From NCBI RefSeq assembly GCF_003206715.1, contig NZ_PZJU01000032.1, positions 1 to 64,000 of the forward strand: DNA of 64,000 nt. Direction: 5' to 3'. Of this stretch, positions 41,861 to 45,007 are shown piece after piece (position 1 is the stretch's first letter; every line of letters begins with the position of its first letter). The notes beneath the pieces are model-generated. The model had not been told where the DNA came from and ran no database searches. It saw only the letters and a program-made list of their open reading frames with translations. Position numbers and translations under genes: made by a program. The stretch comes from Salinicola peritrichatus (GTDB taxonomy: Bacteria; Pseudomonadota; Gammaproteobacteria; Pseudomonadales; Halomonadaceae).

Positions 41861-42658
41861 CTAGCTGCTGCGTAGCATGCGTTCCAGCATGGCGGCATTG
41901 GGGTCGTCGGGCTGGCTGACCACGGCGTAGTTGTAGTTGCCCTCGGACCAATACTGCGCCATCAGGTGGCCGTCGAGTCGTTTGCCGGGATCGAGCAGAC
42001 GATTGCCGCTGCCGGGTGGGCGGATATACATCATCATCCGGCGTCCGGCGCGGTCACGGTAGATCACCATGGCGGCTGGTCCCTGTTCGGTCGCGAGCAG
42101 GCGGACGTCGACCATACGCAGACCGGCGGCGCTGAGATCGGGAGGCATGACGCCACCGCTGAAATGAGTATGAAAGAGCTGCTCGACGTGCGCCCGGGTG
42201 TCGACGGCGGGTTCGGCGTGGGCGTCGCGGCCATTGGCCGGCGTTGTCTCGGGCTCGAGACCGACCGGCGAGGCATCGGCAAACAGACGGTAGGCTTGCA
42301 CCGCGTCGGCCATGGGCGGCGGGGAGGGTGGGCGCATCATGTCGTTGGCCTGCCAGCCGCCGGTCATGCCGAGACCGAGCGCCATCACCAGCATGGCCGC
42401 CGTGGCCAGGTGTCGTCGTTGCCGCTGGTGGCGTCGGCGGCGCAGAGCGGCGGGGTCCAGTGCCGGGTTGTGGGGCCACTGCTGCGGATTGGCGTAGACG
42501 GCGCGCAGACGCCGGGCATCCCGGCGCCAGGCTTCGACCTCGGCGGCCCGCTCCGGTTGGGTTGCCAGCCATGCCTCGACCCAGCGCTGGCGCTCGTCGT
42601 CCAACTGGCCATCGAGGTAGGCGTGCAGATCGTATTCGCTCGGATGACGCTCGTTCAT
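41861..42658 (-). CDS. Anti-sigma factor, partner of the adjacent ECF sigma factor
   Basis: 265-residue single-pass protein. The cytoplasmic N-terminus (YDLHAYLDGQLDDERQRWVE) resembles the anti-sigma domain. One membrane helix follows at about 84-102 (HLATAAMLVMALGLGMTGGW). A periplasmic C-terminal domain of about 160 residues includes a His-rich part (HVEQLFHTHFSGG). It overlaps the sigma gene by four bases. It probably holds the sigma factor until an oxidative or envelope signal arrives. The N-terminus lacks the usual zinc-binding CxxC. Confidence 0.82.
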   Translation of the reverse strand: MNERHPSEYDLHAYLDGQLDDERQRWVEAWLATQPERAAEVEAWRRDARRLRAVYANPQQWPHNPALDPAALRRRRHQRQRRHLATAAMLVMALGLGMTGGWQANDMMRPPSPPPMADAVQAYRLFADASPVGLEPETTPANGRDAHAEPAVDTRAHVEQLFHTHFSGGVMPPDLSAAGLRMVDVRLLATEQGPAAMVIYRDRAGRRMMMYIRPPGSGNRLLDPGKRLDGHLMAQYWSEGNYNYAVVSQPDDPNAAMLERMLRSS

Positions 42659-43185
42659 TTCAGCCTCCGCAATGCCGCTTGCTCTTTCTGTCGTCCCGCT
42701 CCATCGGACTCGCCCTCGTCCAGCGTGCGCAAGGCCCGGCGTGCCCGGGACAGGCGTGACATCACCGTACCCATCGGGATGTTCAGGGTTGCGCTGACCT
42801 CGCGATAGCTCAGCCCTTCCAGCGTGACCAGCATCAACAGTGCCCGCTGTTCGGCGGGTAGCCGGTCGAAAGCCTCCCAGGTGGCGCGAGCGATCACCAC
42901 CTCCTCCGCCGAGGCAGTGGTCGAGGTCTCGCCGGTGAACAACTGCAACAACCGCGTATAGCGCTTGGCGCGTCGCTGTCCGTCGATGAACTGTCGATAG
43001 AGGATGGAGAACAGCCAGGCGCGCAGATCGCCATCGGCGCGGCGGTCATGCCAGCGGCCGATCGCTTTCTCCATGGTCGACTGCACCAGATTGTCGGCGT
43101 TGCTGGGGTCCTGCGTCAGCGACAGCGCGAAGCGTCGCAGCCGGGGCAGGACGTCACGCAGTTGGTCATCGTCCGGTGGGTTCAT
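42655..43185 (-). CDS. ECF RNA polymerase sigma factor
   Basis: 176-residue sigma-70 family protein with only regions 2 and 4. Region 2 reads LRAWLFSILYRQFIDGQRR and region 4 reads LPAEQRALLMLVTLEGLSYR then EVSATLNIPMGTVMSRLSRA. Start at MNPPDDDQ, because the upstream frame runs through the promoter at 43218-43243. It is cotranscribed with its anti-sigma factor and divergent from a SrpA-type catalase and cytochrome b561. Both sides carry the same GGGAATA-N15-CGTC motif, consistent with autoregulation. Confidence 0.9.
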   Translation of the reverse strand: MNPPDDDQLRDVLPRLRRFALSLTQDPSNADNLVQSTMEKAIGRWHDRRADGDLRAWLFSILYRQFIDGQRRAKRYTRLLQLFTGETSTTASAEEVVIARATWEAFDRLPAEQRALLMLVTLEGLSYREVSATLNIPMGTVMSRLSRARRALRTLDEGESDGAGRQKEQAALRRLK

Positions 43186-43217
43186 GGTGTGCTCGCAATC
43201 CGGGTAAGTCCCCGTCA

Positions 43218-43243
43218 GACGAACGAGACGCAAGGCTATTCCC
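43218..43243 (-). promoter_or_regulatory. ECF promoter for the sigma/anti-sigma genes
   Basis: On the minus strand GGGAATA (43243-43237), exactly 15 bases, then CGTC (43221-43218). The ATG of the sigma gene follows 33 bases later. The plus-strand promoter at 43302-43327 has identical elements and identical spacing. CGTC-type -10 elements are typical of ECF sigma factors. Confidence 0.7.
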
Positions 43244-43301
43244 GCCGAGCGCTGACTCGTCACTTTCCTTGCCTTTCCGGCGATCCTCTTCGCGCGCCGG
43301 C

Positions 43302-43327
43302 GGGAATAAACCGTCGATCGGCTCGTC
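43302..43327 (+). promoter_or_regulatory. ECF promoter for the catalase/cytochrome b561 genes
   Basis: GGGAATA (43302-43308), 15 bases, CGTC (43324-43327), then 37 bases to the SrpA-type ATG. It mirrors the element at 43218-43243 on the other strand, which points to one sigma factor reading both. Confidence 0.7.
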
Positions 43328-43364
43328 CTACCCGCTCCCAACGGCAATCACTCGTGGAGTGCCC

Positions 43365-44435
43365 ATGTCTCGACAACCCCCGCGACCGCCCCGTGCCATC
43401 TTCCGGTTGGCGGCGATCGGCCTGGTCATCGCCATCCTGGCGACGGCCTTCGCCTACGTTTCCGGTTGGCTGGACCCCGGCTGGCTGACGCCGGATAGCC
43501 TGATCGATACCTTGGAGGCGGACACCGGAATCCATGCAGGTTACCGCCGCAACCATGCCAAGGGTATCTGCGTGACTGGTGAATTCGAGAGCAACGGCCA
43601 GGCGGCAGCGCTTTCCCGGGCCAGTGTTTTCGACCCGGGCCGCCGTGTTCCGGTGATCGGCAGGCTGGCGATCCCTGGTCCCGATCCGAATGCGTCGGAT
43701 GCGATGCCGCCGGTGCGCAGTTTCGCGCTGCTGTTCCGGTTGCCGGACAACGAACAGTGGCGTACGGCGATGAATGCCATGCCGGTCTTTTCGGTTTCCA
43801 CGCCGGAGGCCTTCCGGGAGCAGTTGGAGGCATCGCAGCCGGACCCGCAAACCGGCAAGCCCGATCCCGACAAGCTGGCGGCCTTCTTCCAGGCGCACCC
43901 GGAAACCAAGCCGTTTCTCGCCTGGGCCAAGACCGCTCGGCGCTCCTCCAGCTACGCCAATATCGGTTACAACAGCCTGAACGCCTTCCGCTTCATCGAT
44001 GACGACGGCAATACGCACTTCGTGCGCTGGGGCGTGGAGCCCGAAGCGCCGTTCTCGCCGATGACCGAGGCTCAGAAGCAGGATCCCGATTTCCTCTCCC
44101 AGGAACTGCGGCAGCGGTTGGCCGACGGGCCGCAGCGCTGGCATCTGATCATCACCGTCGCCGAGCCCGGCGACCCCACCGACGACGCGACCCTGGCGTG
44201 GCCGGCGGAGCGGCGCAGGATCGACGCCGGCATCGTGACCGTCGACAGCGCGCAATCCCAGGTCGACGGCCCGTGCCGGGACATCAACTACGATCCGCTG
44301 ATCCTGCCGGACGGCATCGAGGGCTCCGACGATCCGATATTGAGCGCGCGCTCGGCGGCCTATTCCGAATCCTTCAACCGCCGTACCCGCGAGCAGGCCG
44401 AGGCACCCAACCGCCACCAGGAGCCGCAGTCATGA
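43365..44435 (+). CDS. SrpA-type catalase-related peroxidase
   Basis: 356-residue heme protein of the mini-catalase (SrpA) group. An N-terminal membrane/signal segment (residues 13-32) exports it. The distal His is His64 in YRRNHAKGICVTGEFESNG. The proximal heme-ligand region is RSAAYSESFNRR near the C-terminus (RxxxY motif). GGAG precedes the ATG. It overlaps the cytochrome b561 gene by four bases, and both lie under the ECF-type promoter. The pair probably couples peroxide removal to the quinone pool, a link inferred from context. Confidence 0.88.
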   Translation: MSRQPPRPPRAIFRLAAIGLVIAILATAFAYVSGWLDPGWLTPDSLIDTLEADTGIHAGYRRNHAKGICVTGEFESNGQAAALSRASVFDPGRRVPVIGRLAIPGPDPNASDAMPPVRSFALLFRLPDNEQWRTAMNAMPVFSVSTPEAFREQLEASQPDPQTGKPDPDKLAAFFQAHPETKPFLAWAKTARRSSSYANIGYNSLNAFRFIDDDGNTHFVRWGVEPEAPFSPMTEAQKQDPDFLSQELRQRLADGPQRWHLIITVAEPGDPTDDATLAWPAERRRIDAGIVTVDSAQSQVDGPCRDINYDPLILPDGIEGSDDPILSARSAAYSESFNRRTREQAEAPNRHQEPQS

Positions 44436-45007
44436 ACGAACGCCACGCCTCCCGCCACGGGCAGGACTTTTCGATACCGGCTCGCCTGCTGCACTGGGCG
44501 ATGGCGGTGATGATCATCGCCATGCTGTTCATCGGTGCCGGCATGGTGGCGACGGTCTCGGAGCGCCACGCCCTGCTGATTTCGATCCACAAGCCGCTCG
44601 GCATCGCCATTCTACTGCTGGCGATCGTGCGCCTCGGCGTGCGCTGGCGCTACCCGACACCCGAGTTGCCACGGCACCTTCCAGCCTGGCAGCGACTGGC
44701 TGCCAGGCTGTCGCACTGGCTGCTCTATGCGTTGATGCTGGCGATGCCGCTGATCGGCTGGGCGATGGTCTCGGCCGCTGGCTACCCGGTGACACTGGCG
44801 CCCGGCATCACCTTGCCGCCACTGGTGCCGACATCGGTGACGCTCTACGCCGCCTTGCGTTTCGCCCATACCTGGCTGGCGCTCACGCTGTTCGCATTGA
44901 TTCTCTTGCATCTGGCGGCGGCGCTGTATCACGCCTGGATGCTGCGCGACGACGTGTTCGCCAGCATGACTTCGGGGACACGGCGCCGTGGCCCCGGTTC
45001 AGAATGA
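44432..45007 (+). CDS. Cytochrome b561
   Basis: 191-residue membrane cytochrome with four helices. Heme-ligand histidines are in PARLLHWAMAVMI (helix 1), LISIHKPLGIAILLL (helix 2), ARLSHWLLYALMLAMPLIGW (helix 3) and AHTWLALTLFALILLHLAAA (helix 4). Start overlaps the SrpA-type gene stop (ATGA). It would deliver electrons from ubiquinol to the exported SrpA-like peroxidase. Its 3' end overlaps the convergent DUF924 gene by nine bases. Confidence 0.9.
   Translation: MNERHASRHGQDFSIPARLLHWAMAVMIIAMLFIGAGMVATVSERHALLISIHKPLGIAILLLAIVRLGVRWRYPTPELPRHLPAWQRLAARLSHWLLYALMLAMPLIGWAMVSAAGYPVTLAPGITLPPLVPTSVTLYAALRFAHTWLALTLFALILLHLAAALYHAWMLRDDVFASMTSGTRRRGPGSE

Follow-up and report, generated by a model that had tools for sequence, protein, structure and literature searches.

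Divergent GGGAATA-N15-CGTC sites as predicted promoters of an ECF26-like sigma factor operon and a catalase/cytochrome b561 operon in Salinicola peritrichatus

What controls two operons that diverge from a single 179-bp gap, one encoding an ECF sigma factor with its anti-sigma factor and the other a catalase-family peroxidase with a cytochrome b561? In the window analyzed here, a 64,000-nucleotide stretch of the Salinicola peritrichatus genome, an earlier note had pointed to two exact GGGAATA-N15-CGTC matches on opposite strands of this gap. Their coordinates and spacing were verified: the minus strand carries GGGAATAGCCTTGCGTCTCGTTCGTC at 43218-43243, and the plus strand GGGAATAAACCGTCGATCGGCTCGTC at 43302-43327. 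The unit common to both strands is slightly longer than first noted, CGGCGGGAATA-N14-TCGTC. The gap and its elements are as follows.

43186..43364, no strand: divergent intergenic region of 179 bp, from the sigma ATG at 43185 (minus) to the catalase ATG at 43365 (plus)
43237..43243, minus strand: predicted -35 element GGGAATA of the sigma/anti-sigma promoter, exact, invariant in 7 Salinicola/Phytohalomonas loci
43218..43221, minus strand: predicted -10 element CGTC of the sigma/anti-sigma promoter, exact match
43302..43308, plus strand: predicted -35 element GGGAATA of the catalase/cytochrome b561 promoter, exact, invariant in 7 Salinicola/Phytohalomonas loci
43324..43327, plus strand: predicted -10 element CGTC of the catalase promoter, exact match

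The note had also held that two such matches were improbable by chance, and the numbers bear this out. With spacers of 14-17 allowed, these two sites remained the only matches in the window. None of 100 dinucleotide shuffles contained two GGGAATA/CGTC sites (shuffle mean, 0.03), and base composition predicts only about 2e-5 (plus strand) and 4e-5 (minus strand) GGGAATA-N15-CGTC matches in the gap. A simple scan of 43186-43364 found neither a sigma-70-type promoter nor a terminator. Four genes flank the gap.

42655..43185, minus strand: ECF sigma factor, 176 aa, probably ECF26-like (Pfam Sigma70_r2 and r4_2; NCBIfam sigma70-ECF; in a tree with RpoE6)
41861..42658, minus strand: putative membrane anti-sigma factor, 265 aa, overlapping the sigma stop by 4 nt (hydrophobic segment 84-102)
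43365..44435, plus strand: small catalase-family peroxidase, 356 aa (Pfam Catalase 2e-27, residues 61-340; hydrophobic segment 8-38)
44432..45007, plus strand: cytochrome b561, 191 aa, overlapping the catalase stop by 4 nt (Pfam Ni_hydr_CYTB 3e-29)

The sigma factor consists of regions 2 and 4 only, and its Pfam r2, r4_2 and NCBIfam sigma70-ECF matches are all above cut-off, which places it among the ECF (group 4 sigma-70) factors. The anti-sigma factor has one hydrophobic segment by hydropathy, taken as a membrane helix, and contains no cysteine; its Pfam zf-HC2 match (0.019) is sub-threshold. Judged by its short catalase domain, the 356-aa protein appears to be a small SrpA-type catalase-family peroxidase. 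Its nearest solved chain is 3e4w (320 aa; PDB), and a Klebsiella homologue annotated as srpA adjoins yceJ. The hydrophobic segment at residues 8-38 fits an N-terminal membrane anchor or signal, in keeping with the earlier description of the peroxidase as exported.

We looked for the same arrangement in close relatives. The sigma factor was found in six of 18 Salinicola genomes, counting that of the window, and a seventh copy is present in Phytohalomonas tamaricis. In all seven loci (the window, five other Salinicola and one Phytohalomonas), both sites and the N15 spacing are invariant, while the 49-76 bp of DNA between the paired sites have diverged in sequence. The distance from the sigma-side -35 element to the start codon is 57-59 bp in each of the seven, and most of all loci compared carry a site of the same type 57-60 bp 5′ of the sigma start, as would be expected of an autoregulated ECF operon. 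Phytohalomonas tamaricis (L034 / L130) retains the sigma factor, the anti-sigma factor and both promoter sequences, and its catalase is an N-terminal remnant; a search of that genome for a further catalase of this type found none. Because the catalase has been lost and the promoters kept, the catalase-side site in that genome is no proof of a working target.

More distant loci were retrieved by protein similarity rather than by motif, and sites were looked for only afterwards. The divergent pair was present in another Halomonadaceae genus (L113), in 10/10 genomes of family f21 and 2/2 of family f16 (both of the same order, with sigma factors 49-69% identical), and in two Gluconobacter plasmids, with a spacing of N15 or N16. 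On Pantoea and Duffyella plasmids, the catalase, b561, sigma and anti-sigma genes form one operon with a single site before it. Two Cupriavidus replicons carry the sigma and anti-sigma genes with a site 5′ of the sigma gene, and the fetched stretch contains no catalase. In Caballeronia (L046), which has a catalase and a more distant pair with a sigma factor at 42%, a site between the genes was looked for and was absent (0/1). Across all catalase loci, a site lies upstream of the catalase in 22/22 with an adjoining related sigma/anti-sigma pair versus 0/26 without the pair, counts that are not phylogenetically independent. Of 46 sites gathered, in which GGAATA and CGT are fixed by the search pattern itself, 40 have an N15 spacer; 38 of these extend CGT to CGTC, and 31 extend GGAATA to GGGAATA. 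The predicted divergent promoter layout recurs in many Proteobacteria.

Several of these loci hold further features. The other Halomonadaceae genus has two more sites near the cluster, at L113:8033 (plus) and L113:10058 (minus), the latter in front of genes for two proteins named by eye, one exported and YVTN beta-propeller-like, the other small and HiPIP-like. Genome G051, which has a related sigma factor (42%), holds two more mirror-image pairs (L129:5857(-)/5868(+) and 8454(-)/8465(+)) with -35 elements that nearly touch, in a stretch without a catalase. The two Gluconobacter plasmids bearing the divergent cassette (L045 and L135) were typed one as mobilizable and one as conjugative; in L135, an IS5 transposase gene follows the catalase, and a b561 gene was not detected.

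These comparisons bear on two other explanations of the sites. With only 11 fixed bases, the motif could in principle arise as a coincidence of two short words; since the sites are conserved across several lineages and the shuffles never yielded a pair, we exclude chance, whose probability we regard as practically nil. Alternatively, because CGGCGGGAATA forms an 11-bp inverted repeat in the window, the sites could be the two arms of an operator at which a dimeric transcription factor regulates both operons. Among relatives, however, the arms lie 25-78 bp apart while CGTC stays fixed at N15/N16 within each half, conservation does not extend to the outer flank CGGC, and the Pantoea loci as well as a third target described below have a single site. 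We reject a dimeric operator on the grounds of this variable distance between fixed halves, and consider it very unlikely.

If the sigma factor recognizes this sequence, further members of its regulon might be found elsewhere in the genome. The genome-wide search for GGGAATA-N15-CGTC proposed in the earlier note returned three exact occurrences over all 4.6 Mb, two of which are the window pair. The third was dropped as a target, as it sits inside a relaxase-like coding sequence. That 613-aa relaxase/helicase-like gene (G000 contig C22:124847-127872, L001; named by eye) suggests an integrative conjugative element in the genome. The relaxed pattern GGAATA-N15/16-CGTC gave nine matches in the 4.6-Mb genome versus five for a reversed control pattern. 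Six of the nine fall within predicted reading frames, which leaves the window pair and one further site, on contig C33.

G000 contig C33:129425-129909 (L222, L226): unlinked third predicted promoter and 120-aa target, found by the GGAATA-N15/16-CGTC search

About 100 bp separate the end of the C33 site, AGGAATAGATCACCTGCCCATGCGTCTTAC, from the start of its predicted target, a 120-aa protein that appears to carry a signal peptide and had no family above cut-off in Pfam or NCBIfam. The six sigma-positive Salinicola alone have a close orthologue of this protein (60-63%), while the other Salinicola have only paralogues at no more than 38%. Weaker paralogues are present in every Salinicola genome searched. 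GGAATA-N15-CGTCTTAC is found upstream of the orthologue in 6/6 sigma-positive Salinicola; in the five other than the window genome, the gene adjoins the catalase cluster, with GGAATA-N15-CGTCTTACC upstream in 5/5. In the window genome, it lies on another contig and would thus be a target in trans. A strict pattern search across the genus also returned recurrent N16 matches such as GGGAATAGATCACCTAGACTGAGCGTC; we did not count these as targets because genomes that lack the sigma factor have them too. Judging from sequence and position, the three matches that stand between genes in promoter position probably belong to one regulon.

To which group of ECF sigma factors does this system belong? The published ECF26 promoter consensus is -35 GGAATA and -10 GT; among the Sinorhizobium meliloti promoters mapped by 5′-RACE, AAGAGGGAATAGACCGACGACTCAGCCGTTCTGACACAa and CGAGGGAATTTTCCGGGGCGTCAGTCGTCTCTTCCAGTc each have a spacer of N15 (PMC6180224). 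The sites collected here have both elements. AAGAGGGAATAGACCGACGACTCAGCCGTTCTGACACAa is located beside rpoE6 on pSymA, whose product RpoE6 is 41% identical to the window sigma factor, and in a tree of 44 ECF sigma factors the latter clusters with RpoE6 (ECF26), apart from the other ECF factors of its order. An ECF26 anti-sigma factor would combine an anti-sigma domain, a membrane helix and a periplasmic domain. The overlapping downstream gene, its membrane helix by hydropathy and, in a structure model, its helical N-terminus and beta C-terminal domain accord with this layout, and for the anti-sigma domain itself the NCBIfam antisigma match (3e-8) is below cut-off. The promoter match and the grouping with RpoE6 together suggest an ECF26-like system. 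If the last lower-case base in the S. meliloti sequences is the mapped start, transcription begins 9-10 nt past the -10 element (PMC6180224); by this analogy, the starts in the window are predicted near 43209 (minus) and 43336 (plus).

Membership in this group raises the possibility that the promoters are used mainly by another ECF sigma factor of the cell. Cross-recognition within ECF26 is documented (PMC6180224, PMC3511301, PMC10880074), and cross-talk of the kind seen between S. meliloti RpoE1 and RpoE4 could apply here. However, the next best match to the sigma factor in the genome has an E value of 7e-8 over only about 60 residues, so that no second ECF26-like sigma factor is evident, and the sites track the presence of this particular sigma factor. 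We consider such use by another factor improbable. The earlier claim that GGGAATA-N15-CGTC is the recognition sequence of the adjoining sigma factor gains from two sides, as the site follows the sigma gene among the catalase loci and matches the ECF26 promoter.

In the regulatory scheme that we infer, the two sites are very probably promoters of the adjoining ECF26-like sigma factor. In the resting state, the membrane anti-sigma factor would hold the sigma factor until a periplasmic oxidant, most likely peroxide, inactivates it. Once released, the sigma factor would join a holoenzyme that binds the minus-strand promoter to yield more sigma and anti-sigma factor, and the plus-strand promoter to yield the membrane-anchored catalase-family peroxidase and cytochrome b561, its presumed electron partner. 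The third promoter elsewhere in the genome would supply the 120-aa exported protein. Autoregulation and control of the catalase/b561 operon, both predicted in the earlier note, are strongly supported by comparison: the sites are invariant in six related genomes, the pair occurs in further lineages and together with the sigma factor, a third target exists, and the sites match ECF26 promoters mapped by 5′-RACE. Cross-lineage conservation, the unlinked third target, the ECF26-like assignment and the evidence favoring peroxide over hypochlorite go beyond that first reading.

The evidence on the signal comes from Burkholderia cenocepacia, in which a similar divergent gene pair has been studied. According to PMC2830190, qPCR on biofilms treated with H2O2 gave values of 1.7, 6.5 and 23.1 over three times for BCAL3477, a putative catalase gene; at the same times, the divergent putative sigma gene BCAL3478 gave no significant change, 5.5 and 16.6. 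The same study reports no significant change of either gene with NaOCl, and its authors remark on the parallel but do not explain it. PMC2194791 describes BCAL3478 as PrtI-like, with a linked anti-sigma gene. Since this pair is induced by H2O2 and not by NaOCl, peroxide is by analogy the more likely signal, and the suggestion of hypochlorite in the earlier note is weakened. The promoters could still act as described in response to hypochlorite, to which some other ECF/anti-sigma systems respond (PMC7907618, PMC8315932), or to temperature, as proposed for PrtI/PrtR, a pair described as regulating a protease with temperature (work cited in PMC2194791). Besides the Burkholderia result, the cargo of catalase and b561 without a methionine sulfoxide reductase speaks against such a signal, and we judge it unlikely, though a serious contender.

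The structure model of the anti-sigma factor (mean pLDDT 69, moderate confidence) consists of N-terminal helices, a long helix that covers the membrane segment in part, and a beta domain at the C-terminus. This domain is closest to the C-terminal domain of RseB/MucB (Z 6.7-7.0 versus 4.3 for most unrelated rows), to which Foldseek finds a weak match (E 4e-3 to 3e-2), which is suggestive only of an RseB/MucB-like periplasmic domain. In the known systems, the RseB/MucB C-terminal domain belongs to a separate protein, and in the model it lies within the anti-sigma chain (41861-42658). It is conceivable, though doubtful, that the anti-sigma factor is a one-chain version of the RseA/RseB or MucA/MucB sensor, whose periplasmic RseB-like domain senses an oxidation product such as a peroxidised lipid, and that the freed sigma factor runs a compact, sometimes plasmid-borne cassette for envelope peroxide defence that includes the 120-aa exported protein.

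Our findings provide a sharp candidate recognition sequence, GGAATA-N15-CGTCttAC, for a widespread, little studied sigma/anti-sigma pair, and link that pair in several lineages to a catalase/cytochrome b561 system. Regulon members, including an exported protein of no known family, can be predicted from sequence alone, and a promoter-level explanation is suggested for why BCAL3477 and BCAL3478 rise together in B. cenocepacia.

Among known systems, those of the ChrR and EcfF types likewise place oxidant defence under an ECF sigma factor. Their promoters differ, for example TGATC-N-CGTA for PSPTO_1043 and GTAAC-N14-15-CG for EcfF, and the present anti-sigma factor has no cysteine; PSPTO_1043, EcfF and H. 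influenzae RpoE2 were set aside as models because their promoters or cargo differ. RpoE-RseA-RseB and AlgU-MucA-MucB also employ a membrane anti-sigma factor, and RseB/MucB have a C-terminal domain to which the periplasmic domain modeled here is similar at Z about 7, a weak fold match (Foldseek E 5e-3). The anti-sigma factor and the RseB-like domain would, however, form a single chain here, and the sigma factor and promoter group differ. By gene order and literature rather than by sequence, the system resembles the PrtI/PrtR type. In Pseudomonas fluorescens, PrtI/PrtR pair an ECF sigma factor with a membrane regulator, and the PrtI-like EcfB (BCAL3478) of B. cenocepacia is divergent from the catalase gene BCAL3477 and shares its H2O2 induction kinetics; PrtR, by contrast, is described as an activator, and the excerpts of this literature contain no promoter motif (PMC2194791, PMC2830190, PMC2997014). 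Although the targets described for ECF26 factors in S. meliloti (sulfite oxidation, a serine protease and others) include no catalase/b561 operon, RpoE1, RpoE3, RpoE4 and RpoE6 (PMC6180224, PMC3511301) share with the present system the -35 GGAATA and -10 CGT elements at a spacing of 15-16 and a sigma/anti-sigma operon, autoregulated there and predicted to be so here, which for rpoE6 is divergent from a target gene; their anti-sigma factors begin in the cytoplasm, cross the membrane with one helix and end in the periplasm, a topology also predicted for the one in the window.
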